This document shows positions 5,916 to 61,942 of a stretch of 64,000 bases of DNA, one piece after another; position 1 is the stretch's first letter; every line of letters begins with the position of its first letter. The notes below the pieces were generated by a model that saw nothing but the letters and a program-made list of their open reading frames with translations, was not told the DNA's origin and did no database searches. The DNA comes from Rubrivivax sp. (GTDB taxonomy: Bacteria > Pseudomonadota > Gammaproteobacteria > Burkholderiales > Burkholderiaceae_C). Position numbers and translations under genes: made by a program. The DNA is taken from the NCBI GenBank assembly GCA_027491255.1, contig JAIXWM010000085.1, positions 1 to 64,000 of the forward strand, written 5' to 3'.

Positions 5916-6577
5916 TGTCCATGACCAAGCGCGCTCAGCCCGCCCGGCTGCGCACCCTGGCCCCCCTGCTGGCCGGCCTGATGCTGGTCCTCGCGGCTCC
6001 GGCGCAGGCCTACATCATCCAAGGTGCGGCGAGCTGCCGCGAATGGGCCTCGGACGACTACGACCGCGGCTGGGCGCTGGGCTATGTCAGTGGCTACAAC
6101 GCCGCCAAGTCGTCGGAGCTCAGCAAGGGCATGAAGACGGACGAGATCGTCCGCCGGGTGGCTGAGCTGTGCCGAGCCGAACCGGACCTGGACTTCGACG
6201 ACGCGTTGCAGAAATTCCTCGACAGCCTGCAGGCCAAGTCCCCCGAGCCGCCCCGTCCCGCAGCCCGCAGCGGCGGTGCCGCGGCGGATTTCCGCAACCT
6301 CTCGATCACCGACCTCAAGCTCGACATCGCCAGCATGGGCGGCCAGCGCGTTGCCGTGCGCGCCAAGCTGATGCTGATGGGCGGCATGGCGATGCTGACC
6401 GACCCACGCCAGCCCTTCGACACGAATCCGGTGTTCGCCGACACCGAGAGCCTGCCCCGTGACGACCGGCAATACATCCTGACGCGCTGCAGCACCGGCT
6501 GCGAGGTCACGGTGCGCGGGGTCGTGAGCGAAGTGATGCTGCAACCGGGAGTGCGGGTGCTGTCGCTGGTGCGCTGA
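5915..6577 (+). CDS. Exported hypothetical protein coupled to trpE
   Basis: 220 residues, not recognised as a named family. The ATG at 5915 overlaps the trpE stop by one base, so translation is probably coupled. Residues 1-31 are a clear signal peptide (Lys/Arg, Leu/Ala core, PAQA cleavage). The mature N-terminal half holds two cysteines (in ASCREW and ELCRAEP) around a helical segment GYVSGYNAAKSS, reminiscent of small periplasmic Rap1a/HdeA-like folds. After a Pro-rich linker (about 110-120) the C-terminal half looks like a beta domain with two more cysteines (TRCSTGCEV) and ends LSLVR. Likely periplasmic; no link to tryptophan is evident. Confidence 0.75.
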   Translation: MSMTKRAQPARLRTLAPLLAGLMLVLAAPAQAYIIQGAASCREWASDDYDRGWALGYVSGYNAAKSSELSKGMKTDEIVRRVAELCRAEPDLDFDDALQKFLDSLQAKSPEPPRPAARSGGAAADFRNLSITDLKLDIASMGGQRVAVRAKLMLMGGMAMLTDPRQPFDTNPVFADTESLPRDDRQYILTRCSTGCEVTVRGVVSEVMLQPGVRVLSLVR

Positions 6578-6752
6578 CCGGCCGCGACGGCGGCATCGCG
6601 TCGGCAGCACGCCATGGGCGGCACCCCATCGGCGCCGCGGCGTCGTCGACGCCGTGAATCGGCGTTCCCCGGCAGGCGGCCAGGGCCGGCTCAGAGGCTG
6701 AGCGTTTTTCCGCCGTGCCCGACAGGCGCGTCCAAGCGCCCTGGATCGAGGC

Positions 6753-6792
6753 GCAAACCACAGCCATAGCCCGGGCCATGGCTGTGGTTTGC
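6753..6792. repeat. 40-bp perfect inverted repeat between convergent genes
   Basis: Two 15-base arms (gcaaaccacagccat and its exact reverse complement) flank a 10-base, GC-rich centre. It sits between the trpE-hypothetical pair and the convergent uvrA, and so could end transcription from both sides. No T-run follows on either strand, so it is not a classical intrinsic terminator. The rest of 6578-6852 holds only a weak 7-bp hairpin at 6638-6654. Confidence 0.6.
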
Positions 6793-6852
6793 AGCGATGA
6801 GCCAGCGGCTTTGGGCGTGCAAGAGGGGCATGGGGGAAGGACTCTCAGCCTC

Positions 6853-9800
6853 TCAGGCCGTGCGCGCCAGCACCGGCGCCAGCGCAACCCCGGTGTGCGT
6901 GCCGGCGCCCACCACCTGTTCGGGCGTGCCGGCGCTGACGACCCGGCCCCCTTCGGTGCCGCCCTCGGGACCGAGGTCGACGACCCAGTCGGCCTCGGCG
7001 ATCACGTCGAGGTCGTGCTCGATCACGACCACGCTGTGGCCGCCGTCGACGAGCCGGTGCAGCACCCGGATCAGCTTCTCGACGTCGGCCATGTGCAGAC
7101 CCACCGTGGGCTCGTCCAGCACGTACAGCGTGTGCGGCGCGCGCCGGGCGGCGTCGTCGCGCACCTTGGCCAGCTCGGTCACGAGCTTGATGCGCTGCGC
7201 CTCGCCGCCCGACAGCGTGGGACTGGGCTGGCCCAGCGTCAGGTAGCCCAGGCCCACGTCCTTCAGCAGCTGCAGCGGATGCGCGACCGACGGCATGGAG
7301 GCGAAGAACTCCACCGCCTCGTCCACCTCCATGCGCAGCACGTCGCCGATGCTGCGGCCGCGCCAGGTGACGGCCAGGGTCTCGGCGTTGAAGCGCTGGC
7401 CGTGGCAGACGTCGCAGGGCACCTTGACGTCGGGCAGGAAGCTCATCTCGATCGTGCGCAGGCCCTGCCCTTCGCAGGCCGGGCAGCGCCCATCACCGGT
7501 GTTGAAGGAGAAGCGCGCCGCGCCATAACCGCGGGCGCGGGCCTCCAGCGTCTCGGTGAAGAGCTTGCGGATCGTGTCCCAGAAGCCGATGTAGGTGGCC
7601 GGGCAGGAGCGCGGCGTCTTGCCGATGGGCGTCTGGTCGACCTCGAGCACCCGCTCCAGGGTCTCGACGCCCTCGAGCCCGGCGCAGCCGGCCCAGGCCG
7701 GGCCGCGGCCATCCGCCCAGGCCTCGCGCCCGGCCTTCGTCGAGCGCTGCGCCACCGCAGCAAGCACGTTGGTCAGCAGCACGTCGCGCGCGAGCGTGCT
7801 CTTGCCCGAGCCCGAGACCCCGGTCACCGCGACCAGCCGGCCCAGCGGCACGCGCAGGTCGACGTCGCGCAGGTTGTGCAGGCGCGCGCCGCGCAGCGTC
7901 AGCGCCGGCGTGGCGCCGTCGACGCCGCGCCGCGCGCGCAGCGGGTGGCGCAGCGGCGCGGCGAGCAGGCGACCGGTCAGCGAATCGGGGTTGCCCGCCA
8001 GGTCGTCGACAGAGCCCTGGGCGACGAGTCGACCGCCTCTTCGGCCCGCACCGGGGCCGATGTCGATCAGGTGGTCGGCGCGGCGTATCGTGTCCTCGTC
8101 GTGCTCGACGACCACCAGCGTGTTGCCCTGCGCGCCCAGGTGTTGCAGCGCGCCGAGCAGGATGCCGTTGTCGCGTGGATGCAGGCCGATGGTGGGCTCG
8201 TCCAGCACGTAGCACACGCCCTGGAGGTTGCTGCCGAGCTGCGCCGCCAGGCGGATGCGCTGCGCCTCGCCGCCCGACAGCGTCGGCGCGGCACGGTCCA
8301 GCGTCAGGTAGCCCAGACCGACCTGCTGCAGGAAATCAAGGCGGCTGCGGATCTCGGCGATCACGTCGCGCGCGATGCCGGTCTCGCGCGCGCTCAGCCG
8401 GCCTGCGGCGGCAAGCGCAGCGACCCAGTCCGCCGCCTCGCGCACGCTCATGCGCGCGACGTCGGCGATCGGCCGGCCCTGGAAGCGCACCGACAGCGCC
8501 TGCGGGTTCAGGCGCGCGCCTGAGCACTCCTGGCAGGGCTCGTCGACCAGGCCGTCGACCTCGGGCTCCTCGGACGGGAAGCTCTGCTCGCGCCCGCGCG
8601 CGTCGTCGTCGCGCACCGAGTCGTCGAGCGCGCGCCGCTGCTCGCGCGTCAGCTGCAGGCCCGTGCCCACGCAGGCCGAGCACCAGCCGTGCTTGCTGTT
8701 GTAGCTGAACATGCGCGGGTCCAGCTCGGGGTAGCTGGTGCCGCACTGCGGGCAGGCACGCCGCGTCGAGAAGACCTGCACCCGGCCGATGCCGGCCGTG
8801 GACTGCCCGTCGGCCATGGCCTGCGCCAGGCCGTCCAGCGGGCGCAGCAGATGCAGCACGCCCTTGCCGAGCTCCAGCGCCTTGGACAAGGCTGCACGCA
8901 GCACGCCCTCGCGCGCCGGGTCGACGACCAGGTCGGCCACTGGCAGCTCGATCGTGTGCTCCTTGAAGCGGTCGATGCGCGGAAAGGGGTCGACCTTCAC
9001 GAACTCGCCATCGATGCGCAGGTGGGTGTGGCCGCGCGCCTTGGCCCATTTGGCCAGGTCGGTGTAGACCCCCTTGCGGTTCACGACCAGCGGCGCGAGC
9101 AGGCCGACGTGGGTTCCCGCATGCTCGCGCAGCAGCTGCGCGGCGATGCTCTCGGCGCTCTGCGGCCGGACCTCGGCACCGTCGTGGGTGCAATGCTGGA
9201 TGCCGAGCTTGACCCACAGCAGGCGCAGGAGGTGCCAGACCTCGGTCGTCGTCGCCACCGTGCTCTTGCGCCCGCCGCGCGACAGGCGCTGCTCGATGGC
9301 CACCGTCGGCGGGATGCCCCAGACGGCATCGACCTCGGGCCGGCCGGCCGGCTGCACGATGCTGCGCGCGTAGGCGTTCAGGCTCTCGAGGTAACGGCGC
9401 TGGCCCTCGTTGAACAGGATGTCGAAGGCCAGCGTGCTCTTGCCCGAGCCCGAGACGCCGGTGATGACGCTGAATTTCCCGCGCGGGATCTCCACCGTCA
9501 TCGACTTCAGGTTGTGTTCGCGCGCGTTGACGATGCGGATCGCGTCGCCGAGGTAGGCGCCGCCGGAGCCCGGCTGCGTGTCGAAGCCCCCGGCGCCCAC
9601 CCCCTGCCCTGCGAGCGCAGAGGCGCCGAATGCGCGCGGCGCCGGCGCCTCGGCGGCCACCGGCGCGGACTGTCCCATCGCCACGTCGTACTCCCGCAGC
9701 GCCGTGCCGGTGTGCGAGTGCGGGTGCGCGCGCAGGACGTCGGGCGTGCCGGCGCAGACCAGCTCGCCGCCGGCCTCGCCGCCCTCGGGACCGAGGTCGA

Positions 9801-12630
9801 TCACCCAGTCGGCGGCGCGGATCACATCGAGGTTGTGCTCGATCACCACCAGCGAGTGCCCGGCATCGAGCAGCTTGCGCAGCGCCCGCATCAGCTTGGC
9901 GATGTCGTCGAAGTGCAGACCGGTGGTCGGCTCGTCGAAGAGGAAGAGCGTGCCCTTCTTGGCCACCCGCTGCGCCGGCGAGGTGGCCGCCTCGGCCAGG
10001 AAGCCGGCGAGCTTCAGGCGCTGCGCCTCGCCGCCGGACAGCGTGGGCACCGGCTGGCCCAGGCGCACGTAGTCCAGGCCGACGTCGACCAGCGGCTGCA
10101 GGCGCGCGACGACCTCGCGATCCTCGCGGAACAACGCCACGGCCTCGCTGACCGTGAGCTCCAGCACGTCGGCCACCGAGAGCTGGCGCGGACCGCGCAC
10201 GATCTTCACCTCCAGCACCTCGGGCCGGTAACGGCGCCCGTCACAGTCGGGACAGCGCAGGTAGACGTCGGAGAGGAACTGCATCTCCACGTGCTCGAAG
10301 CCCGAACCACCGCAGGCCGGGCAGCGCCCGTCACCGGCGTTGAAGCTGAACATGCCCGCGCCATAGCTGCGCTCCAGCGCCAGCGGCGCCAGCGCAAACA
10401 GCTTGCGCACCTCGTCGAAGGCGCCGACATAGCTGGCCGGGTTGCTGCGCGCGGTCTTGCCGATGGGGGACTGGTCGACGAAGACGGCACCGGCCAGCCA
10501 GTCGGCGCCCAGCAGGCGCTCGTGCGCGCCCGGCGTCTCGCTCGCCTGGCCGAAATGGCGCGCCAGCGCCGGATGCAGCACGTCCTGCACCAGCGTGCTC
10601 TTGCCCGAGCCCGAGACCCCGGTCACGCAGACCAGGCGCTGGAGCGGGAGTTCCACCGTCACGCCCTTGAGGTTGTGCTCGGTCGCCCCTTCGAGCACCA
10701 GGCGCGGCGTGGCCTCGGTGACGAGGCGACGCAAGCCCAGGCCGACCTGCTTGCGCCCGCCCAGATAGGCGCCGGTCAGCGTGTCGGCGTCGCGCGCCTG
10801 CGCGGGCGTGCCGTCGAAGACGATCTGACCGCCGCGCTCGCCCGGGCCCGGGCCCATGTCGATCAGGCGGTCGGCCGCCAGCATCACGGCCGGGTCGTGC
10901 TCGACGACGACCAGAGTGTTGCCGGCATCACGCAGGCGATGCATGGCCTGCACGATGCGGTTCATGTCGCGCGGGTGCAGGCCGATGCTCGGCTCGTCGA
11001 GCACGAACATCGTGTTCACGAGCGAGGTGCCGAGCGCGGTCGTCAGGTTGATGCGCTGGACCTCGCCGCCCGACAGCGTGCGGCTCTGCCGGTCCAGCGT
11101 CAGATACCCCAGACCGACATCGCACAGGTACTTCAGCCGCGTCCGCACTTCCTCCATCAGCAACTTCAGGGCCTCGTCGCGCAGCGTGTCGGGCAGCGTC
11201 AGGCCGTCGAAGAAGCGGCGCAGGCGCTGCAGCGGCAGCTGCATCAGGTCATGCAGGTGCAGGCCGGGCAAGGCCTCGAGCTGGGCTGGCGTCCAGGCCA
11301 CGCCCACGGGCATGAAGCGGCGGTAGCCCGCGCCCGCCCCGTCACCGGCCTCGAGCACCGCGTCGGCATCGGCCTTCGAGCCCAGGCGCCACAGCAGCGC
11401 CTCCAGCTTCAGCCGCGCGCCGCCGCAGCTCTGGCAGGGCGTGTAGCTGCGGTACTTGGACAAGAGCACGCGGATGTGCATCTTGTACGACTTGCTCTCG
11501 AGGTAGCCGAAGAAGCGGCGCACCCCGTACCACTGGCGGTTCCAGTCGCCCTTCCAGTGCGGCGAGCCTTCGATCACCCAGTCGCGCTGCGCCGGGGTGA
11601 GTTGGCCCCAGGCGGTGTCGCGCGGAATGCCGGCCTCGCCGGCGTACCTGATCAGGTCGTCCTGGCACTCCTTCCAGGCCGGGGTCTGCAGCGGCTTGAT
11701 CGCGCCGTTGCGCAGGGTCTTGCGGTGGTCGGGGATGACGAGACCGAAGTCGACGCCGATCACGCGCCCGAAGCCACGGCAGGTGTCGCAGGCGCCGAAG
11801 GCCGAGTTGAAGCTGAACAGGGCCGGGCGAGGCTCGGCGTAGCGCCGCCCGCTCTCGGGGCAGTGCAGGCCGCTGGAGTAGCGCCAGGGCAGCGGCATCT
11901 CGGCCGCACCGTCGACGCCGCCCTCGGGCACCGCGGGCATCGGGTAGACGTCGAGCCGGCCACCGCCGCGCTTGAAGGCGAGCTCGATCGCCTCCATCAC
12001 GCGCGCGCGCTCGGCGCCGCCCAGGCGCAAGCGGTCTGCGACGACCCGCAATACCTTGCGGCCGCCCTCGATGTGCTCCTCGTGGACGCGTGTGAAGCCG
12101 CTGGCCGCGAGCCACTGCGCCTGTTGCTCGGCGCTGGTGTCGGCGGGCAGTTCGACCGGGAAGGTGAAGACCAGGCGAGGGTCTCCCGACGCCGCGGCGC
12201 GCGCCACCAGGTCGGCGTGCACGGTCTCGGGCGTGTCGTGGCGCACCGGCAGCGCCGTCTCCTGGTCGAAAAGCTGCGCCGCGCGCGCGTACAGCAGCTT
12301 CAGGTGGTCGTTCAGCTCGGTCATCGTGCCGACCGTGCTGCGGCTGGTGCGCACCGGGTTGGTCTGGTCGATGGCGATCGCCGGCGGCACGCCGTCGACG
12401 CGGTCCACCGCCGGGCGGTCCATGCGGTCGAGGAACTGGCGCGCATAGGCGCTGAAGGTCTCGACGTAGCGGCGCTGGCCCTCGGCGTAGAGGGTGTCGA
12501 AGACGAGACTGGACTTGCCCGAACCGCTCGGCCCGGTCACCACCGTCATCGCGCCGGTGCGGATGTCGAGGTCCAGGTTCTTCAGGTTGTGCTGGCGCGC
12601 GCCGCGGATGCGGATCAGCCCGGTGGACAT
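6853..12630 (-). CDS. uvrA: Tandem-duplicated UvrA (excinuclease ABC subunit A, double length)
   Basis: 1925 residues, about twice a normal UvrA (about 940). Two complete UvrA modules are joined by an Ala/Gly/Pro-rich linker (around residues 980-1030). Each module has two ABC ATPase sites, giving four Walker A motifs (GPSGSGKS at 33-40, then three GVSGSGKST), four LSGGE signatures and four Walker B lines ([52 protein letters not shown]). Zinc-finger CxxC pairs appear in both modules (CDTC, CQSC, CPAC/CPDC; CPQC, CSAC, CQEC, CPAC/CDVC). UvrA recognises damaged DNA as a dimer and loads UvrB; here one chain could mimic the dimer. Start is ATG 12630 with AAGGCG just upstream; an earlier in-frame TTG lacks a ribosome site. 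Related double-length proteins occur in other Burkholderiales (recollection). Confidence 0.93.
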
Positions 12631-18969: not shown

Positions 18970-19727
18970 CAATGGGCTCCCAAGGACAGGCCGAGCAGGC
19001 GCTGCTGCAGCGCCGTGTCGGCGGCCAGTTCGGCCATGGCGCCGCGGTGGACGATGCGACCGTCTTCCATGACGGCCACCGTATCGCCGAGCGCACGCGC
19101 GACCTGGAAGTTCTGCTCGACGAGCAGGACGGTGGTGCGCTGGGCCTTGAGCTCGCGCAGCGCGGCGATCAGGTTGCCGACGATGGCCGGCGCCAGGCCC
19201 TTGCTCGGCTCGTCGATCAGCAGCAGGCGGCGCGGCTCGACGATGGCGCGGCCGATCGCCAGCATCTGCTTCTGCCCGCCGCTGAGCTTGCCGGCCGGGT
19301 AGAGCCAGAACTTGCGCAGGGCCGGAAACAGGCTGAAGATCCACTCGAGGCGGGCGCTGTCGAGCTCACCCGCATGGCGCGCGCCGCGCGCGGCCAGCAC
19401 CATGTTCTCCTGCACGGTCAGGTCGGTGAATATGCCCATGGCCTCGGGCACGTAGGCGATGCCCAGGCGGGCGATGTCGGGGGTGGGCATCGAATGCAGC
19501 GCCTGGCCGGCAAAGCCGATCTCTCCCCGGCTGGCAGGCCACAGGCCCATCACCGTGCGCAGCGTGGTCGTCTTGCCGGCGCCGTTGCGGCCCAGCAGCA
19601 TCGTCACCTGGCCCTCGGGCACCTCGAGGTCGATCCCGTGCAGGATGTGGTACGCGCCGATGTGCGTGTGCACGCCGCGCAGCGACAGCAGCGCGAGGTC
19701 GGCGCCGGACGGCATCGTGGGGTTCAT
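18969..19727 (-). CDS. livF: Branched-chain-type ABC transporter ATPase LivF
   Basis: 252 residues. Complete ABC ATPase: Walker A GRNGAGKTT (about 45-53), Q-loop region GIAYVPEAMGIF, signature LSGGQKQMLAIGRA, Walker B LLLIDEPSKGLAP, H-loop in VLLVEQNF (Gln-Asn in place of the usual His, as is normal for LivF). Powers import with LivG. Start ATG 19727 overlaps the livG stop by four bases. Confidence 0.93.
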   Translation of the reverse strand: MNPTMPSGADLALLSLRGVHTHIGAYHILHGIDLEVPEGQVTMLLGRNGAGKTTTLRTVMGLWPASRGEIGFAGQALHSMPTPDIARLGIAYVPEAMGIFTDLTVQENMVLAARGARHAGELDSARLEWIFSLFPALRKFWLYPAGKLSGGQKQMLAIGRAIVEPRRLLLIDEPSKGLAPAIVGNLIAALRELKAQRTTVLLVEQNFQVARALGDTVAVMEDGRIVHRGAMAELAADTALQQRLLGLSLGAH

Positions 19728-20509
19728 GGCACTGCTTCTTCCTCGGCCGCGAGTCCGAGGTAGGCCTGCTGCACCACGGGCGAGGCGATGACCTCGGCCG
19801 GGGCGCCGTCGGCCACGAGGCGGCCGTTGTGCAGCACGACGATGCGGTCGGACAGCTCACGCACCACGTCCATCTTGTGCTCGACGAGCAGGATGGTTCG
19901 GTCGCGCCGCGCCTTGAGCGCGCGGATCAGGTCGAGCACGACCGGCGCGTCGTCCAGGCTCATGCCCGCGGTCGGCTCGTCGAACATGTAGACCTTGGGG
20001 TCGAGCGCCATCAGCAGCGCGACCTCAAGCTTGCGCTGGTCGCCGTGCGGCAGCGAGGCCGCCGGCTGGTCCACGCGGTCGCCGAGATGCACCTGGTGCA
20101 GCAGGTCGCGCGCCTGTGCGATCCAGTCGGCCCGGTCGAGCCAGACCTTGAACAGATCGAGCCCGCCGAGGCGACCACCGCCGGCGCGGCCCTGCTCGCG
20201 CGCCTGCACCGCCAGGCGCACGTTCTCGAGCACGCTCAGGTTCGGGAAGAGCTGCGTGAGCTGGAAGGCGCGGCCGAGGCCGCGGCGCGTGCGCAGCGGC
20301 GCCGGCAGGCGCGTCAGGTCCTCGCCGTCGAGCAGCACCCGGCCGGCGCTGGCCTGCAGCTGACCGCTGATCAGGTTGAAGTAGGTCGTCTTGCCGGCCC
20401 CGTTGGGCCCGACGATGGAGGTCAGCGTGCCGGGCTCGAAACGGCACGACACGGCGTCGACGGCCACATGGCCGCCGAACCGGATCGTCAGATCGACAGT
20501 CTCGAGCAC
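19724..20509 (-). CDS. livG: Branched-chain-type ABC transporter ATPase LivG
   Basis: 261 residues starting at GTG 20509. Walker A GPNGAGKTTYFN, the LivG-type stretch RTRRGLGRAFQLTQLFPNLSVLENV, signature-like SLPHGDQRKLEVALLMA (degenerate LSHGDQ form usual in LivG), Walker B MFDEPTAGMS and the His switch in LLVEHKMDVV. Sixteen bases separate it from livK upstream, and it overlaps livF downstream. Second nucleotide-binding subunit of the importer. Confidence 0.93.
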   Translation of the reverse strand: MLETVDLTIRFGGHVAVDAVSCRFEPGTLTSIVGPNGAGKTTYFNLISGQLQASAGRVLLDGEDLTRLPAPLRTRRGLGRAFQLTQLFPNLSVLENVRLAVQAREQGRAGGGRLGGLDLFKVWLDRADWIAQARDLLHQVHLGDRVDQPAASLPHGDQRKLEVALLMALDPKVYMFDEPTAGMSLDDAPVVLDLIRALKARRDRTILLVEHKMDVVRELSDRIVVLHNGRLVADGAPAEVIASPVVQQAYLGLAAEEEAVP

Positions 20510-51135: not shown

Positions 51136-51633
51136 ATGCCCCAACTCCATGTCAACGGCCAGCTGCTGAACTACGAGGCAGAAGGCGACACCCCGCTGCT
51201 GTGGGTGCTGCGCGAACAGCTCGGCATGACCGGCACGAAGTACGGTTGCGGTGTCGCCCAGTGCGGCGCGTGCACCGTGCACATCGACGGCGCGCCGATC
51301 CGCTCCTGCGTCCTTCCTGCGGCTGCCGTGCAGCCGACGCAGAAGATCACGACCATCGAAGGCCTGTCACCCGATGGCAGCCACCCGGTGCAGAAGGCCT
51401 GGGCGGCGCTGGACGTACCGCAGTGCGGCTATTGCCAGAGCGGCATGATCATGGCTGCGGCGGCGCTGCTGAAGGACAAGCCCAAGCCCACCGACGCCGA
51501 CATCGACGACGCCATCACCAACATCTGCCGCTGCGGCACCTACAACCGGGTGCGCGCCGCGATCAAGGTGGCCGCGGGTGCCGAGCTCAAGTCGGCGGGT
51601 CTGGATATCGTTCACGTCACGAGGAGGGCCTGA
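51136..51633 (+). CDS. iorA: Isoquinoline-1-oxidoreductase alpha-type 2Fe-2S subunit
   Basis: 165 residues, no signal peptide. Plant-type 2Fe-2S cluster cysteines at 38, 43, 46 and 58 (CGVAQCGAC ... C), and the second cluster in CGYCQSG (about 97) and ICRCGTY (about 131). Electron-transfer subunit of a molybdenum hydroxylase. Start ATG 51136 has GAGGAG upstream. Two bases separate it from iorB, whose Tat signal would carry the folded pair out together. The 265-base gap before it contains a small hairpin (50997-51010) but no clear promoter. Confidence 0.93.
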
Positions 51634-51635
51634 AC

Positions 51636-53876
51636 ATGAGCAAGCTCTACCAGGATGCATTCGAGGCGCAGGCGCGCAGCAGCGCCGGCGTCGCACCGGC
51701 CACCGGCATCAGCCGCAGGCGTTTCATCGGCAGTGCCGCTGCCGCCGGCTCCCTCGTCGTCGGTTTCCAGGTGTCGCTGCCGGCGCGCGCGCAGCAGGGC
51801 GCGGCCGCGTTACCGCCGGAGGTCAATGCCTGGGTCGTCGTCCAGCCCGACGAGCGCGTGATCATCCGCATCGCCCGCTCCGAGATGGGCCAGGGCACGC
51901 TGACCGGTCTGGCGCAGATGGTGGCCGAGGAACTGGAGTGCGACTGGGCCCGGGTCACCACCGAGTACCCCACGCCGGGCCAGAACCTCGCGCGCAACCG
52001 TGTCTGGGGCAACTTCTCCACCGGCGGCAGCCGCGGCATCCGCGAATCGCAGGACTACGTGCGCAAGGGCGGTGCCGCAGCGCGGATGATGCTGGTCCAG
52101 GCCGCGGCCAACGGCTGGGGCGTGCAGGCGGCCGAATGCCGTGTCGCCGCTGGCGTCATCACGCACCCCGGCTCGGGCCGCCGCACGACCTACGGTCAGG
52201 TGGCCGCGCCTGCAGCCAAACTGCCCGTGCCGGCGAACCCGGCGCTGAAGGATCCGAAGGACTGGAAACTCGTCGGTGCGCGCCTGGCCCGCCTCGACAC
52301 GGTGGAGAAGACCACCGGCGCCCTCGTCTACGGTGCCGACCTGAAGCTGCCCGGCATGCTGAACGCGGCGATCCGCGACTGCCCGGTCTTCGGCGGCAAG
52401 GTCCGCAGCTTCGATGCCGGCGCCATCGCGTCGCGCCCTGGCGTGCGCAAGGTATTGAAGGTGGGCGACAGCGCCGTGGCGGTCGTCGCCGACACCTGGT
52501 GGCGTGCCAAGACCGCACTCGATGCGCTGCCCATCGATTGGGATGTCGGACCCAACGCAGCCGTCCAGCAGGCGGCCATCGACGCGACGCTGAAGGCCGG
52601 TCTGGACGCCGCGGATGCCGCTGTCGGCAACCGCAACGGCGACGCGAAGGAGGTGATCGCCAAAGCCACGCGCAAGGTCGAGGCGGTGTACTCCTACCCG
52701 TTCCAGAACCACGCGACGATGGAGCCCATGAACGCCACCGCGGTCTGGACGCCCGAGCGTTGCGAGGTCTGGACGCCCACCCAGAACGGCGAGTCGGCGC
52801 TTGCGGCCACGGCCGCTGCCGCAGGGCTGCCCCCGGCGAAATGCGACGTCTACAAGCTGCCGCTGGGCGGGGGCTTCGGGCGCCGGGGCATGGCCGACTG
52901 GGTCACACAGGTGGTGCTGATCGCGCGCGAGATGCCGGGAACGCCCGTCAAGCTCCTGTGGACGCGTGAGGAGGACATGCAGCATGGGCGCTACCACCCG
53001 GTGACCCAGTGCAAGATGACCGCGGCGCTCGATGAGCAGGGTGAGGTCACGGCGATGCACATGCGCATCTCCGGGCAATCCATCCTCGCCGCCGTGTTCC
53101 CGCAGAACATCCGCAATGGCCTGGACCCGGTCGTCTTCCAGGGGCTGAACGCCGGCGGTGGCGAGGCCATGATCGGCTACAGCTTCCCGCACCTGCTCAT
53201 CGACCACGCGATGCGCAACCCGCACGTGCCGCCAGGCTTCTGGCGCGGGGTCAACCTGAACCAGAATGCGCTCTACCTCGAGTGCTTCATCGACGAGATC
53301 GCGCACGCGACGAAGCAGGATCCGCTCGCGCTGCGGCGCAAGCTGATGGCGCGTCACCCCAAGCATCTGGCGGTGCTGAACGCAGTGGCCGAGCGCGCTG
53401 GCTGGGGACAACCCGCCCCCGACGTCGGCGGCCTGAAGGTCTACCGTGGGCTGTCGCAGACCCACGGCTTCGGCAGCTACGTCGCCGCCTGCGCCGAGGT
53501 CTCGGTCACGGCCGACGGCGAGTTGAAAATCCACCGCATCGTCGCCGCCACCGACTGCGGCTACGCCGTCAATCCGCAGCAGATCGAAGCCCAGATCGAG
53601 GGCTCCTTCGTCTATGGACTGGGCGCGATGCTGTTCCAGGCCTGCACCGTCAAGGACGGCGCGATCGAGCAGAAGAACTTCGACACCTACCCCTGCCTGA
53701 AGATCGCGCAGATGCCCAAGGTCGAGTCCATCGTCATGCCGTCGGGCGGCTTCTGGGGCGGTGTCGGCGAGCCGACCATCGCCGTGGCAGCGCCCGCTGT
53801 GCTGAACGCGATCTTCGCCGCCACCGGCAAGCGCGTCCGCGACATGCCACTGAGCAGGCACAGTCTCAAGGCATGA
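51636..53876 (+). CDS. iorB: Isoquinoline-1-oxidoreductase beta-type molybdopterin subunit, Tat-exported
   Basis: 746 residues from ATG 51636 (GAGGAGG upstream). Twin-arginine signal SRRRFIG at 26-32 followed by an Ala-rich core ending ARAQ, so it acts in the periplasm. Xanthine-oxidase-family molybdenum domain: EMGQGTLTGLAQM, LGGGFGRRGMADW, and the C-terminal active-site Glu in WGGVGEPTIA. Single-chain Mo subunit without FAD, typical of IorB; electrons leave by the 2Fe-2S subunit to a cytochrome. IorB names isoquinoline, but family members oxidise many aldehydes and N-heterocycles. Its stop overlaps soxX (ATGA). Confidence 0.93.
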   Translation: MSKLYQDAFEAQARSSAGVAPATGISRRRFIGSAAAAGSLVVGFQVSLPARAQQGAAALPPEVNAWVVVQPDERVIIRIARSEMGQGTLTGLAQMVAEELECDWARVTTEYPTPGQNLARNRVWGNFSTGGSRGIRESQDYVRKGGAAARMMLVQAAANGWGVQAAECRVAAGVITHPGSGRRTTYGQVAAPAAKLPVPANPALKDPKDWKLVGARLARLDTVEKTTGALVYGADLKLPGMLNAAIRDCPVFGGKVRSFDAGAIASRPGVRKVLKVGDSAVAVVADTWWRAKTALDALPIDWDVGPNAAVQQAAIDATLKAGLDAADAAVGNRNGDAKEVIAKATRKVEAVYSYPFQNHATMEPMNATAVWTPERCEVWTPTQNGESALAATAAAAGLPPAKCDVYKLPLGGGFGRRGMADWVTQVVLIAREMPGTPVKLLWTREEDMQHGRYHPVTQCKMTAALDEQGEVTAMHMRISGQSILAAVFPQNIRNGLDPVVFQGLNAGGGEAMIGYSFPHLLIDHAMRNPHVPPGFWRGVNLNQNALYLECFIDEIAHATKQDPLALRRKLMARHPKHLAVLNAVAERAGWGQPAPDVGGLKVYRGLSQTHGFGSYVAACAEVSVTADGELKIHRIVAATDCGYAVNPQQIEAQIEGSFVYGLGAMLFQACTVKDGAIEQKNFDTYPCLKIAQMPKVESIVMPSGGFWGGVGEPTIAVAAPAVLNAIFAATGKRVRDMPLSRHSLKA

Positions 53877-54334
53877 GGCTGGGCGGGAGCCACGGCGCCG
53901 CAGGGGTCGCCCTGGCTCTTGGCATCGCCGCCACGGCGCCTGCGGCACGGGCTGCGGGCGTCGCACCTCACGAGGTCGAAGGCGACAGGATCGAGCAGCC
54001 TCTGCTCGGCCTGCGCGGCGACCCCGCCAGGGGCCGCGCCATCGTTGCCGACCGCCGCACCGGCCTGTGCCTGCTGTGCCACCAGGCCCCGTTGCCCGAG
54101 GAACGTTCGCAAGGCAACCTGTCGAGTGATCTGTCCGGCGCCGGGAGCCGCTGGACGGCGGCGCAGTTGCGGCTGCGCATCGTGGATGCGCGCTTACTGA
54201 ACCCGGCGTCGGTGATGCCGTCGTTTCACCGCACCGAGGGGCTGAGCCGCGTCAGCGCGGCTTGGCGTGGCCGTCCGATCCTGGACGCGCAGCAAGTGGA
54301 GGATGTCGTGGCTTACCTGGAGAGCTTGAAATGA
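53873..54334 (+). CDS. soxX: Sulfur-oxidation cytochrome SoxX
   Basis: 153 residues. Signal peptide to about residue 28 (ending ARAA). Single heme c motif CLLCH (Cys66), axial Met in NPASVMPSFH, and the SoxX line WTAAQLRLRIVDAR. With SoxA it forms the c-type cytochrome that couples sulfur compounds to the carrier SoxYZ. The ATG overlaps the iorB stop by four bases, an unusual coupling to a molybdenum hydroxylase. Its own stop overlaps soxY the same way. Confidence 0.9.
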   Translation: MRLGGSHGAAGVALALGIAATAPAARAAGVAPHEVEGDRIEQPLLGLRGDPARGRAIVADRRTGLCLLCHQAPLPEERSQGNLSSDLSGAGSRWTAAQLRLRIVDARLLNPASVMPSFHRTEGLSRVSAAWRGRPILDAQQVEDVVAYLESLK

Positions 54335-54843
54335 AACAGGCCGTCGCACCGCCCACAGACGGGCCACGAGCCGCCGTGGCAATGTCTCGCCGAAAGTGTC
54401 TGATCGGTTCGGGACTCGCCCTGGTGGCCTGCGCGGTGCCGCCATCCGCCGCAGCAGCCTCGCCGGACCTGCGCGATTCGCCCCAGCTTCACGAGGCGCT
54501 CAGCCGCTTCGTCGGCGGCGCGGTGGTGCGTGAAGGTCGGGTCGAGTTCGACTTGGCGGAACTGGTGGAGAACGGCAACGCCGTTCCGGTGACCGTGTCC
54601 GTGGCGAGCCCGATGAGCGACAGCGACCACGTGGTCGCGATCGCCCTGTTCGCGGGCCGCAATCCGCTGCCCGAGGTCGCCGAATTCAAGCTCGGCCCGC
54701 GCGCCGGCCGCGCCCGCATCGCCACCCGCATCCGCCTGTCGACGTCGCAGCGCGTGATCGCCGCCGCAAGGCTTTCGGACGGCACCGTCTGGACGCGCAC
54801 CGTCGATGTCCTCGTGACTCTCGCGGCCTGCATCGAGGAGTGA
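54331..54843 (+). CDS. soxY: Sulfur carrier protein SoxY, atypical C-terminus
   Basis: 170 residues. Tat-type signal near MSRRKCLIGSGLALVACAV, then the SoxY Ig-like fold (LVENGNAVPVTVSVASPM, VVAIALFAGRNPLPEVAEFKLGPRAG, RLSTSQRVIAAARLSDGT). Classical SoxY ends in GGCGG, with the cysteine carrying the sulfur substrate; here the end is LVTLAACIEE, so the cysteine remains but the flexible glycines are replaced and two acidic residues follow. Overlaps soxX by four bases. Likely periplasmic with SoxZ; carrier activity uncertain. Confidence 0.85.
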   Translation: MKQAVAPPTDGPRAAVAMSRRKCLIGSGLALVACAVPPSAAAASPDLRDSPQLHEALSRFVGGAVVREGRVEFDLAELVENGNAVPVTVSVASPMSDSDHVVAIALFAGRNPLPEVAEFKLGPRAGRARIATRIRLSTSQRVIAAARLSDGTVWTRTVDVLVTLAACIEE

Positions 54844-54909
54844 GATGACCATGTCGAATCGCGTTCATCGCGGCCTACACGCAAACAGGCGCCGACCGGC
54901 GCAACAGCC

Positions 54910-55230
54910 ATGACCCGCGCCATCGTCACCCTGCCGCGACAAGCCCGCAAGGGCGAGGTGATCGAGGTCCGTGCGCTCGTCGCCCATCCGATGGAGACGG
55001 GGCACCGGCCCGACAGCGACGGGCGCGTCCTGCCGCGCAACATCATCCGCCGTTTCACCTGCCGCTATGACGGCCAGACCGTCTTCAGCGCCGACCTGCA
55101 CCCGGCCATCGCAGCCAATCCCCTGATCGTCTTCCACACCGTGGCCACCGTGACCGGCCCGCTGACCTGCACCTGGGAGGGCGACGGCGGCTTCGCTCAC
55201 GAGCACGTGGCGTCGCTGCAGGTGGTGTGA
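54910..55230 (+). CDS. soxZ: Sulfur carrier partner SoxZ
   Basis: 106 residues, no signal peptide (exported bound to SoxY). Family lines: LPRQARKGEVIEVRALVAHPMETGHRPD and NIIRRFTCRYDGQTVFSADLHPAIAANP. It forms the heterodimer that supports SoxY. Start ATG 54910 follows soxY by 66 bases. The end overlaps the soxA start (GTGA). Confidence 0.93.
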   Translation: MTRAIVTLPRQARKGEVIEVRALVAHPMETGHRPDSDGRVLPRNIIRRFTCRYDGQTVFSADLHPAIAANPLIVFHTVATVTGPLTCTWEGDGGFAHEHVASLQVV

Positions 55231-56102
55231 AAAGGGCCCGTTCGACGGACGTGGCGGCTGTGCATCGCGTGCCCTCCCAGGGGAGGCGTGTCGAGGTCTG
55301 CCAACGTCGCAGCCGACGGCCCACCGATCTGGCCCTGGCCCTGGCCACCACGTTGCTGGCCAGCTTGATGGCAATCCCCCGAGACGCAAGCGCACAGCCG
55401 CAAGGGCGCAGCGGCTACGACCTGATGAGCAGGGACCTGCAGGCCATGCAGCGCGACGACTCGCTCAACCCCGGGATGCTGTGGGTGCTCGAGGGCCAGG
55501 CGCTGTGGACCCGGCGCGAGAGCGCCGCAGGGCGCGCGTGCGCCGACTGCCACGGCGCCACCCCCGCGGAACAATTGCGCGGCACGGCGGCGACCTACCC
55601 GGCCTGGGATGCGCTGCTCGGCAAGCCGGTCTCACTGGGTGAGCGCATCGCGCAGTGCCGCACCCGCCACCAGGGGCTGGCGGCTTCCGCCCCCGGCGCA
55701 CAGGCACTGCTGGCCCTCGAGGCGGCGGTGGCCCACGCCTCCCGCAGCCTGCCCATGCGCCCACCGGACGACACGCGACTGACCCCGTGGCGCGAGCGTG
55801 GGCAGAAGCTGTGGCTGCAGCGACTCGGGCAACTCGACCTGTCATGCGCCCAATGCCATGACGAGCGTGCGGGCGGCCGCCTCGGCGGCGCCGTGATCCC
55901 CCCCGGCAACGCCGCAGGCTATCCCACATACCGGCTCGAATGGCAGGGGCTCGGCACGCTGCAGAGGCGCCTGCGCAACTGCATGACCGGCGTGCGCGCA
56001 GAGCCCTACGCCACAGGCTCCGACGAGATGCGGGCCCTGGAGGTCTACCTGGCCTGGCGCGACCGCGGCCTGGCGGTGGAAGTCCCGGCCGTGCGGCCTT
56101 GA
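55227..56102 (+). CDS. soxA: Diheme sulfur-oxidation cytochrome SoxA
   Basis: 291 residues from GTG 55227, overlapping the soxZ stop. A basic N-terminus and Leu/Ala core (about 33-55) serve as signal peptide, although the start could be one of several downstream GTGs. Two heme motifs are present, CADCH (Cys105) and CAQCH (Cys207), and the third landmark, the catalytic Cys of RNCMTGVRAEPY that becomes the persulfide ligand in SoxA. With SoxX it would load substrate on SoxYZ. Last of the coupled genes; no soxB or soxCD follows. Confidence 0.9.
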   Translation: MKRARSTDVAAVHRVPSQGRRVEVCQRRSRRPTDLALALATTLLASLMAIPRDASAQPQGRSGYDLMSRDLQAMQRDDSLNPGMLWVLEGQALWTRRESAAGRACADCHGATPAEQLRGTAATYPAWDALLGKPVSLGERIAQCRTRHQGLAASAPGAQALLALEAAVAHASRSLPMRPPDDTRLTPWRERGQKLWLQRLGQLDLSCAQCHDERAGGRLGGAVIPPGNAAGYPTYRLEWQGLGTLQRRLRNCMTGVRAEPYATGSDEMRALEVYLAWRDRGLAVEVPAVRP

Positions 56103-59087: not shown

Positions 59088-59600
59088 ATGCCCGCACTGA
59101 ACCTCCTCTTGAACGGCCAGGCCGTCGCCACCGAGGCGGCCCCCACGACCCTGCTCGTCGACCTGATCCGCGAGGGCAGGCGCCTGACGGGCACCCACAG
59201 CGGCTGCGACACCGCGCAGTGCGGCGCCTGCACCGTGCTCGTCGACGGCCGGCCGGTCAAGAGCTGCAGCGTGCTTGCACTGCAAGTCCAGGACTGCGAT
59301 GTCACGACCGTCGAGGGGCTGCCGGCACTGGCCGGCGCCGCCACCACCACCGAGGGCCTGCACCCGCTGCAGGACGCCTTCATGGCCTGCCACGGGCTGC
59401 AGTGCGGCTTCTGCACCCCGGGCATGTTGATGGCTGCCGCCGGCCTGCTGCGCACCAACCCGGCCCCCAGCGACGCCGAGATCGCGCAAGCGCTCGAGGG
59501 CAACCTCTGCCGTTGCACCGGTTACGTCAACATCATCGCTGCCGTGCGGCAGGCTGCGCAGGCGATGCGGGGCGCCGCCACCCAGGGAGTCCAGGCATGA
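59088..59600 (+). CDS. CO-dehydrogenase/xanthine-dehydrogenase-type small 2Fe-2S subunit
   Basis: 170 residues. Cys40, 45, 48 and 60 form the plant-type cluster (CDTAQCGAC...C); the second cluster is in CGFCTPGM and CRCTGY. Electron-transfer subunit of a molybdenum hydroxylase, CoxS/QorS type. Its stop overlaps the large subunit start by four bases. It differs in pattern from IorA (51136) and has no signal peptide. Confidence 0.93.
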   Translation: MPALNLLLNGQAVATEAAPTTLLVDLIREGRRLTGTHSGCDTAQCGACTVLVDGRPVKSCSVLALQVQDCDVTTVEGLPALAGAATTTEGLHPLQDAFMACHGLQCGFCTPGMLMAAAGLLRTNPAPSDAEIAQALEGNLCRCTGYVNIIAAVRQAAQAMRGAATQGVQA

Positions 59601-61942
59601 ACGCGCCCAAGGAACTGTCCGGCGAGGCGCTGCGCTTCGGCAGCGGCCACACCGTGCGCCGCATCGAGGACCCGACGCTCGTGAGCGGGCGGGGCCAGTA
59701 CACCGACGACCTGCAGCGCGAGGGACTGGCCCACCTGGTCTTCGTGCGCTCGCCGCATGCGCATGCGCGCATCGCCGCCATCGACGCCACGGCTGCGCTG
59801 GCGCTGCCGGGGGTGCTGGCGGTCTACACCGGCGCGGAACTGGTGGCCGCTGGCGTCAAGCCTCTGGCCGGGCCGCCGCCCGCCTTCAAGCGCCCTGACG
59901 GCACCCCATCGGCCACGGCGCCGCGGCGCGCTCTGGCGCACGGGGTCGTCCGCTACGTGGGCGAGGCCGTCGCTGCGGTCGTCGCCGACACCCGCGAGGC
60001 CGCCGTCGACGCTGCCGAGGCGGTGATGGTCGACTACGAAGAACGACCCGCGGTCACGACGCTGGAGGCCGCGCTGGCCCCCGGGGCGCCGGCGCTGTGC
60101 GAGCAGGCGCCGGACAACATCTGCGCCGAGGGGCGCGAGGGCGATGCCGCCGCCTGCGTCGCCGCCTTTGCAGCCGCAGCGCACGTGGTGCGGCTCGAAC
60201 TCGTCAACCAGCGCCTGGCGCCCTCGCCGATCGAGCCACGCGTCATCCTGGCCGAGCCCGAGCCCGGCACCGGCCGGCTGCTCGTGACCCTGTCCAACCA
60301 GATGCCCACCGGCATCCGCGACAGCCTCGCGGCCCTGCTGCACGGCATCGGCAAGGAACAGATCCGGGTCAAGGTCGGCGACGTCGGCGGCGGCTTCGGC
60401 ATGAAGACCGGCCTGTACCCCGAGGACCTGGTCGTCGCCCACGCCGCGCGCACGCTGCAGCGCCCGGTGCGCTGGCGCGCGCAGCGGCTCGAGGAGTTCA
60501 TGGCCGCCGTGCACGCGCGCGACTGGCGCACCACGGCCGAACTGGCGCTGGACGCCAGCGGCCGGGTGCTCGCGATGCGCCAGCGCACGCATGCCAACGT
60601 CGGCGCCTACGCCATCCCGACCGGCGTCATGATCCCGCTCGTACTCGGGCCCTTCGTGGCCACGAGCGTCTACGACATCCCGGTCGTCGACCTGCACGCC
60701 ACCGCGGTGCTGAGCAACACCGGCCCCCTGGCCGCCTACCGCGGCGCAGGACGGCCCGAGGCCATCTACGTCGTCGAGCGCCTGATGGACGAGGCGGCGC
60801 GCGTCACCGGCCTGGACCCGGCCGAACTGCGCCGACGCAACCTCGTGCAGCCGCAGCAGATGCCCTACACCAGCCCGACGCGGCAGGTGTACGACACCGG
60901 CGAGTTCGAGAAGATGCTCGACCAGGCGCTCGCGCTCGGGGACTGGGCGGGCTACCCGGCACGTGCAGCGGGCACCGCGGCGCGTGGCCACCTGCGCGGC
61001 CGCAGCGTGACGACCTTCCTCGAATGGACGGGGGGCAACGCACTTACCGAGAAGGTGCAGGTGCAGGTCCGGGCCGACGGCATCATCGAGCTCAGCTCGG
61101 CCACGATGGCCATGGGCCAGGGCATCGCGACGAGCTACGCCCAGCTCGCGGTCGACATCTTCGGCGTGCCCATCGACCGCATCCGCATCCTGCAGGGGGA
61201 CACCGACCGCGCCAACGGCTTCGGCAGTGCCGGCAGTCGCTCGCTGTTCACCGGCGGTGGCGCGGTGCGCGTGGCCAGCGAGCGCACGGTGGACCACGCG
61301 CGCGAGCTCGCTGCCCAGGCGCTCGAGGCCGCGCCGTCGGACATCGAATACCGCGCCGGCGCCTTCAACGTCGTCGGCACCGACCTGCGCATCGGCCTGT
61401 TCGATCTTGCCGGGCGCCAAAGCGGCGGCCTGATCACCGTGGCCGCCGAGGCCAGCGCCAGCGCCGCGAGCTGGCCCAATGCCGCCCACGTGTGCGAGGT
61501 CGAGATCGACCCCGGGACCGGCGAGGTCGAGGTCGTCGCCTACGCCAGCGTCAACGACATCGGGCGCGTGATCAGCCCGCAGATCGTGCAAGGCCAGGTC
61601 GAGGGTGGTGCGGTCCAGGGCATCGGTCAGGCGCTGTGCGAGCAGGTCGCCTACGACGAGGCGGGCCAACTGCTGACCGCGAGCTTCATGGACTACGCGA
61701 TGCCGCGCGCCGACGGCTTCATCGGCTTCAAGACCCTGTTCGACACCTCGGTGCCGTGCAAGACCAATCTGCTGGGTGCCAAGGGCGTCGGCGAGCTGGG
61801 CACGATCGGTGCCACGCCGGTGGTGGCCAACGCCGTCGTCGACGCGCTGCTGGCCGCCGGCGTGCCGCGAGCCGCGGCTCTGGCGCTGCAGATGCCGTTC
61901 ACGGCGCAGAAGGTCTGGCAGGCGTTGCAGCAGCGGCGCTGA
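59597..61942 (+). CDS. Xanthine-dehydrogenase-family molybdopterin large subunit
   Basis: 781 residues from ATG 59597. Family landmarks: RIEDPTLVSGRGQYTDDL at the N-terminus, VGDVGGGFGMKTGLYPED, AYRGAGRPEAIYVVERLMD, AMGQGIATSYAQ, and the catalytic Glu in LGAKGVGELGTIGATPV. AYRGAGRPE lacks the AYRCSFR active-site cysteine loop of true CO dehydrogenase, so it is a form II/other hydroxylase (aromatic, heterocyclic or nicotinate-like substrates). No FAD-binding medium subunit is encoded beside it. No signal peptide. Confidence 0.93.
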   Translation: MNAPKELSGEALRFGSGHTVRRIEDPTLVSGRGQYTDDLQREGLAHLVFVRSPHAHARIAAIDATAALALPGVLAVYTGAELVAAGVKPLAGPPPAFKRPDGTPSATAPRRALAHGVVRYVGEAVAAVVADTREAAVDAAEAVMVDYEERPAVTTLEAALAPGAPALCEQAPDNICAEGREGDAAACVAAFAAAAHVVRLELVNQRLAPSPIEPRVILAEPEPGTGRLLVTLSNQMPTGIRDSLAALLHGIGKEQIRVKVGDVGGGFGMKTGLYPEDLVVAHAARTLQRPVRWRAQRLEEFMAAVHARDWRTTAELALDASGRVLAMRQRTHANVGAYAIPTGVMIPLVLGPFVATSVYDIPVVDLHATAVLSNTGPLAAYRGAGRPEAIYVVERLMDEAARVTGLDPAELRRRNLVQPQQMPYTSPTRQVYDTGEFEKMLDQALALGDWAGYPARAAGTAARGHLRGRSVTTFLEWTGGNALTEKVQVQVRADGIIELSSATMAMGQGIATSYAQLAVDIFGVPIDRIRILQGDTDRANGFGSAGSRSLFTGGGAVRVASERTVDHARELAAQALEAAPSDIEYRAGAFNVVGTDLRIGLFDLAGRQSGGLITVAAEASASAASWPNAAHVCEVEIDPGTGEVEVVAYASVNDIGRVISPQIVQGQVEGGAVQGIGQALCEQVAYDEAGQLLTASFMDYAMPRADGFIGFKTLFDTSVPCKTNLLGAKGVGELGTIGATPVVANAVVDALLAAGVPRAAALALQMPFTAQKVWQALQQRR

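Follow-up and report, generated by a model that had tools for sequence, protein, structure and literature searches.

A conserved gene set pairing an IorAB-type molybdenum hydroxylase with soxXYZA and an AACIE-arm SoxY in Rubrivivax and other bacteria

The stretch of 64,000 nucleotides of Rubrivivax sp. DNA analysed here (the window, 64 kb) carries a set of six open genes spanning positions 51136-56102 in the plus-strand order iorA, iorB, soxX, soxY, soxZ, soxA. It combines a two-subunit molybdenum hydroxylase with proteins of the Sox type:

51136-51633, plus strand: iorA, [2Fe-2S] subunit of a molybdenum hydroxylase (PF01799 and PF00111)
51636-53876, plus strand: iorB, molybdopterin subunit with a twin-arginine translocation (Tat) signal (PF02738, PF20256)
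53769-53771, plus strand: codon of the IorB GEP glutamate E712, present in 66/67 linked loci and invariant in 24 aligned sequences
53873-54334, plus strand: soxX, monohaem cytochrome c (TIGR04485, 75.8 bits, cut-off 61)
54331-54843, plus strand: soxY-like carrier of the AACIE arm family (TIGR04487, 181.4 bits, cut-off 172)
54823-54840, plus strand: carrier arm AACIEE, with its cysteine codon at 54829-54831 (cysteine in 67/67 linked loci)
54910-55230, plus strand: soxZ (TIGR04490, 79.6 bits, cut-off 76)
55227-56102, plus strand: soxA, dihaem cytochrome c with a C-terminal cysteine (TIGR04484, 203.2 bits, cut-off 110)

An earlier note on this DNA, made from the sequence alone, had given the same order and strand and its overlaps are all seen: ATGA at iorB/soxX and soxX/soxY, and GTGA at soxZ/soxA. 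The genes iorA and iorB are separated by 2 bases, soxY and soxZ by 66. The start of soxA is uncertain: the GTG at 55227 puts a long leader ahead of a signal-like stretch. The Tat signal that had been assigned to IorB is present as the motif SRRRFIG, and the SoxY leader is also twin-arginine. IorA has no export signal of its own and is likely co-exported with IorB. The molybdopterin domains, two [2Fe-2S] sites and the GEP glutamate are all found in IorAB, and we take E712 to be catalytic, as in this enzyme class. The closest solved chain to IorB is 8gy3_C, the large subunit of an aldehyde dehydrogenase (E 6e-76); no NCBIfam equivalog scores above its cut-off with IorAB, and Ior (isoquinoline 1-oxidoreductase) is used here as a family label. 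SoxA aligns with 1h31 and 2c1d through its C-terminal cysteine, presumably the active cysteine. As the note had reported, soxB and soxCD are missing from the window: tblastn queries with the genome's own SoxB, SoxC-like and SoxD-like proteins give no match in it. Scans for promoters, terminators and folds gave nothing above chance.

The label soxY needs correcting, since the protein fails TIGR04488, the model of true SoxY (94.5 bits, cut-off 125), and passes NCBIfam TIGR04487, "SoxY-related AACIE arm protein". The earlier note rightly saw a Sox-related carrier in it, assigned it to the wrong family and overlooked the variation of the arm with the partner enzyme. SoxYZ is well established as a carrier in thiosulfate oxidation. 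The set shares with the canonical Sox system SoxX, SoxZ and SoxA proteins that pass the Sox models, the haem motifs and the SoxA and SoxY cysteines. It differs by the arm AACIEE for GGCGG, by a SoxY below TIGR04488 and by IorAB instead of SoxB and SoxCD; two tested features, the SoxY type and SoxB, set it outside the canonical system. NCBIfam had named TIGR04487 for the arm of its members, and what is new beyond this naming is its association with IorAB and its lack of SoxB.

Scanning of a species-genome collection with the SoxY of the window alone yielded 28 loci, each of which was searched with the six proteins by tblastn. Represented among them are Rubrivivax, Roseateles, Pelomonas, Rhizobacter, Rhodoferax and other beta-proteobacterial bins, and 25 of the loci hold the complete iorA-iorB-soxX-soxY-soxZ-soxA. 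The exceptions are L035, which starts inside iorB, and L026 and L041 (Rhodospirillaceae), without IorAB and with soxB adjoining. In a sample of 398 genomes of the phylum TIGR04487 is found above its cut-off in 15, the window included; iorAB adjoins in all 15 and soxB is in the stretch in none. The set is also found on plasmids of Methylobacterium sp. NMS14P, Neorhizobium galegae and Roseomonas marmotae, accompanied by genes for a small cytochrome and a flavin adenine dinucleotide (FAD) protein that lie between iorB and soxX in the first two and behind soxA in Roseomonas. On the Neorhizobium plasmid, iorB and the small cytochrome are absent from the annotation table and were found by tblastn. 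Pfam identifies the FAD protein of the Methylobacterium plasmid as the flavoprotein chain of flavocytochrome c sulfide dehydrogenase (FCSD), and the small cytochrome with the FCSD flavoprotein is encoded between iorB and soxX in several lineages. Clustering of flanking open reading frames (ORFs) in 49 and in 55 loci gave no cross-lineage partner beyond the six genes and this FCSD flavoprotein with its small cytochrome. The Methylobacterium plasmid (L117) has in addition a gene for methanethiol S-methyltransferase (mddA, 19359-20093) about 8 kb behind the set; its position could be due to chance.

The association was quantified in the window's own order (290 genomes), with E-value limits of 1e-20 for TIGR04487 and 1e-180 for IorB, the IorB searches scoring the best few candidates per genome. 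There are 64 TIGR04487 matches, and 72 IorB matches among those scored. The gene iorB lies within 6 kb of 52 of the 64 SoxY matches, 49 of them on the same strand; it is upstream in 48, downstream in one and divergent in three. Five of the 12 unlinked SoxY score below 97 bits, and the two of these inspected (L176 and L177) have GGCGG arms and soxB. Among the other seven, L172 is at a contig end, the arm of L173 is GGCGG, L174 adjoins a more distant IorAB, each of L169 to L171 is a second sox set beside a linked one elsewhere in its genome, and the genome of L175 has IorAB on other contigs. Conversely, no SoxY is found within 6 kb for 20 of the 72 IorB matches. IorB is present in 51/51 genomes with a SoxY of at least 100 bits and in seven more, two of which (G506 and G575) have a diverged SoxY adjoining. 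Fisher's test gives p values of 1.3e-49 by genome and 2.9e-21 by genus (22/131 genera) for this co-occurrence, both of them too small owing to relatedness.

A second order of the same phylum, that of G217, was covered with 288 genomes and gave 45 SoxY rows among the matches listed. Within these, iorB is at most 6 kb away for 26/26 SoxY that reach the last model position and near none of the 19 that stop at position 144 or 145, as judged by coordinates; for one of the 19 (L220 of G898) the end of iorB was found at the contig edge. Most IorB matches above 1000 bits (26/28) adjoin SoxY, no sox genes are seen in the stretch inspected around the IorB of G809 and of G826, and ten weaker IorB matches are without SoxY by coordinates. 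The AACIE-type SoxY is nearly always beside iorB in two orders.

Residues were tallied in 67 IorB-linked loci. The arm cysteine and the twin arginines of SoxY and the eight cluster cysteines of IorA are retained in 67/67, the CxxCH motif and the methionine of SoxX in 61/61. Both haem motifs and the C-terminal cysteine of SoxA are found in 61/62, the exception (L118) being an alignment gap. The IorB glutamate is kept in 66/67; the iorB of L111 is interrupted by an in-frame stop. The ratio of non-synonymous to synonymous substitution rates (dN/dS) is below 1 in seven pairs and six genes wherever computable; the estimate is rough, with ORFs taken from stop to stop and their first 12 percent trimmed, and synonymous divergence is saturated for SoxY and SoxA of L104/L106. 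The earlier note had considered that the pairing might be confined to this strain by rearrangement, or that the copies might be decayed. Local rearrangement is rejected because the set recurs across many genera, and decay is rejected on the dN/dS values. The linkage that the note proposed is thereby sustained across genera, rearranged gene orders and plasmids: iorAB and soxXYZA are supported as one conserved unit, and the set is real, conserved and under selection. An in-frame TGA occurs once within the IorB match in each of two genomes of one genus (G323:C1:699318-701531 and G309:C38:82144-84351; L111 and L112).

The arm of SoxY varies with the neighbouring enzyme. We inspected 107 SoxY loci, chosen mainly by TIGR04487 score or as exceptions and including close relatives: 68 are near IorB, 21 near SoxB and 18 near neither, this last group including L211, whose tail is abnormal. 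All 21 SoxB-linked SoxY have a C-terminal GGCGG, and none of the 68 IorB-linked ones has a GGC arm. The latter comprise 46 AAC, 15 SAC, two AGC and one each of PAC, GAC, ASC, TAC and SSC, with an acidic residue at most two positions after the cysteine in 61/68. Partnerless SoxY have ten GGC, two NGC and six TAC, AAC or SAC arms. In an unrooted tree of 105 sequences (138 columns, arm removed, L080 and L211 left out), a split separates 20 SoxB rows with nine partnerless SoxY from 68 IorB rows with eight partnerless SoxY, with a support of 95 in the Shimodaira-Hasegawa-like approximate likelihood ratio test (SH-aLRT), so that the partner, IorB or SoxB, is a single change on a tree made without the arm. 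Two of the eight partnerless SoxY on the IorB side, L088 and L173, have GGC arms and long branches. Two columns of IorB carry basic residues alongside acidic arms and not alongside the others. This covariation is not used as support, because the test is post hoc and the column also varies in IorB proteins without SoxY; among control clade pairs, two such columns were reached in 9/300 and the one charge reversal in 0/300. The Roseomonas marmotae plasmid (L119, 9857-10297) encodes an IorB-linked SoxY with arm GACVETG that is annotated as a plain thiosulfate carrier SoxY. A SoxYZ pair is found beside an FCSD-like flavoprotein, with neither IorAB nor SoxB in the stretch, in L225 (6984-9372), L091 and L120; their arms end in GGCLT, NGCK and NGCL, and they are perhaps another carrier variant.

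Contig C37 of the host assembly (6.5 Mb, 202 contigs, 98 percent complete) bears a canonical sox cluster that comprises SoxB, SoxC (TIGR04555, 595 bits), a SoxD-like cytochrome, a GGCGG SoxY, SoxZ and SoxA. The earlier note had envisaged a complete sox cluster elsewhere in the genome alongside decayed copies here; the cluster exists, the decay does not. Near this cluster, one ORF shares 46 percent identity with the FCSD flavoprotein found in some sets. The third SoxY of the host belongs to a second copy of the set on contig C126, reordered as soxX-soxY-soxZ-soxA-iorA-iorB, whose IorB is 55-57 percent identical to that of the window:

G000:C126:33000-44899, about 6190-11256: L043, second copy of the set, carrier arm ESACLDMG

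SoxB scores above its cut-off in 7/12 genomes tested and in none of the other five. Four SoxB-free genomes (G323, G309, G075 and G220) hold the full set, each with one SoxY match among the matches listed; G139, also without SoxB, has iorA-iorB-soxX-soxA (L151, 7783-11916) and no SoxY at E 0.1, SoxZ not having been searched for. A thiamine pyrophosphate (TPP) enzyme encoded beside the L151 set was considered as a sulfoacetaldehyde acetyltransferase and rejected, as it fits PRK06154. Four loci of four families (L198, L199, L205 and L206) are reduced to iorA-iorB-soxY-soxZ, with no CxxCH ORF within the 16-17 kb inspected. Their genomes hold SoxA elsewhere, and the SoxA loci inspected have their own SoxZ. 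No soxX was seen at L190 and L201. In L112 the set is followed by an XdhC-MobA fusion gene; L111, L113 and L114 have ORFs homologous to it. L169 (1570-8386) and L171 (7558-15658) have soxXYZA with arm ETACLDA about 5 kb or less from SoxC-like and SoxD-like genes. In the tree of IorB, linked and unlinked enzymes are intermixed, and the link was therefore gained or lost repeatedly on the IorB side.

Pfam finds Hsp90, M15 and M20 peptidases, a transglutaminase-like protein, a ketopantoate reductase, a second molybdenum hydroxylase and an isochorismatase-like protein in the flanks of the set in the window. The second hydroxylase pair lies 3 kb behind the six genes (59088-61942, plus strand), with a [2Fe-2S] subunit at 59088-59600 and a CoxL-like large subunit ORF at 59219-61942; the ketopantoate reductase and M20 peptidase genes stand in between.

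The set retains SoxXA and SoxYZ, lacks SoxB and SoxCD, includes IorAB and has another arm, which is most simply read as a carrier that still becomes loaded with a sulfur compound and has IorAB as its client enzyme. We favour the hypothesis of one periplasmic pathway on the Sox carrier principle in which IorAB replaces SoxB and SoxCD, and give it a probability of about 0.5. The loading step is probably that of canonical Sox: SoxXA would oxidatively load a sulfur compound as a disulfide on the arm cysteine of SoxYZ. The AAC-x-acid arm, in place of GGCGG, would serve IorAB and not SoxB or SoxCD. Enzymes of the IorAB class hydroxylate carbon with water, and we infer that IorAB does so on the carrier-bound compound. 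Its electrons would pass through the Fe-S clusters to c-type cytochromes, namely SoxXA and, in some lineages, also the small cytochrome associated with FCSD. The four loci that hold just iorAB-soxYZ connect IorAB with the carrier, and the FCSD flavoprotein of some sets points to sulfur. Since an acidic residue by the cysteine should suit the doubly negative thiosulfate poorly, we lean to an organic thiol; the earlier note had suggested perhaps a sulfur-containing heterocycle or aldehyde. Our guess is that its alpha carbon is oxidised and a carrier persulfide left: the alpha-hydroxylated disulfide would split into an aldehyde and the persulfide, whose sulfur could go to FCSD or to the resident Sox system. 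The full version, in which a xanthine dehydrogenase-type hydroxylase would for the first time act on a protein-tethered substrate, an organic thiol on the SoxY arm oxidised at the carbon next to sulfur with the carrier leaving as persulfide, in an organosulfur Sox cycle free of SoxB and SoxCD, is a tentative proposal that we consider doubtful.

Several observations weigh against this hypothesis. The closest solved relative of IorB is an aldehyde dehydrogenase, which needs no carrier. L151 pairs iorAB with soxXA in a genome where no SoxY was found; the L169 to L171 stretches contain AAC-type soxXYZA and lack IorAB; and IorAB also occurs without nearby sox genes, partly in genomes where no such SoxY was found. 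The SoxY tree, unrooted and with few columns, does not give the direction of the arm and partner change, and it may be the departure of SoxB, not the arrival of IorAB, that altered the arm.

Some of these facts give real support to another, unlikely explanation, in which IorAB hydroxylates a free aldehyde or heterocycle in the periplasm as other enzymes of its kind do, SoxXA replaces the three-haem cytochrome as electron outlet and SoxYZ has a side role. IorAB shares with the periplasmic aldehyde dehydrogenases of the xanthine dehydrogenase family (8gy3) the two-subunit make-up, the molybdopterin domains and the GEP glutamate, and differs in having sox genes, not a three-haem cytochrome, behind iorB. 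In two distant IorB relatives (about 40% identical, L158 and L159) a three-haem ORF is directly behind iorB, which favours an electron outlet and agrees with the note's placement of SoxX in the cytochrome slot; L151, with soxXA and without soxYZ, likewise favours the outlet. The placement holds less well where the small cytochrome and FCSD genes intervene, in L151, and in the four loci without soxXA, whose retained iorAB-soxYZ also speaks against an electron outlet. Such an outlet would not need the conserved cysteines of SoxY and SoxA either, nor does it account for an arm that differs with the partner.

Somewhat less likely again are two steps without contact, in which one compound would be oxidised at its carbon moiety by IorAB and at its sulfur moiety by SoxXYZA, with handover by diffusion. 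The conserved neighbourhood with its added FCSD flavoprotein and the SoxB found elsewhere in 7/12 genomes would fit this division of labour, which leaves unexplained both the difference from SoxB-linked carrier arms and the sets in SoxB-free genomes. SoxYZ might alternatively serve the upkeep of the enzyme: a labile sulfido ligand is required throughout this enzyme class, and sulfane sulfur of SoxYZ would restore it on the IorB molybdenum cofactor in the periplasm. The minimal iorAB-soxYZ sets would suit such a role, which we regard as improbable, as the same IorAB subfamily has members that lack such a carrier, the XdhC-MobA fusion behind the set in L112 represents the usual cytoplasmic route, and SoxXA is left without clear use. 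Chance or operon hitchhiking, suggested by the varying order (iorAB behind soxA on C126, divergent in three loci), is very improbable, since company kept despite changing order argues for function and the association, beyond its inflated Fisher values, is repeated in the second order and on plasmids.

The set resembles one described arrangement, the quinoprotein dehydrogenase-associated SoxYZ-like carrier (TIGR04557), which likewise adjoins a periplasmic dehydrogenase. SoxY and SoxZ are fused there; in the window they are separate (57.2 and 37.5 bits, cut-off 140) and accompanied by SoxXA. PMC11237559 suggests a role of fused SoxYZ in carbon metabolism; it also proposes other roles for other divergent SoxYs, in a large SoxY survey from which sequences without the GGC motif were removed. 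Bradyrhizobium diazoefficiens has soxY1 and soxY2, of which only soxY1 is essential for thiosulfate oxidation according to PMC5748708. A search of a limited collection of papers, most of them judged from the listing, found no description of the iorAB-sox pairing.

The carrier hypothesis lends itself to direct experiment, with one six-gene operon, SoxB-free genomes and clear cysteine mutants. Counts of soxXYZA genes are no proof of thiosulfate oxidation, given that a GGC-less SoxY is dropped from a survey (PMC11237559) and labelled plain SoxY in a plasmid record. If the carrier reading is true, the Sox carrier would also serve other chemistry, possibly that of organic sulfur, with the loading step kept and the processing enzyme and the arm swapped.

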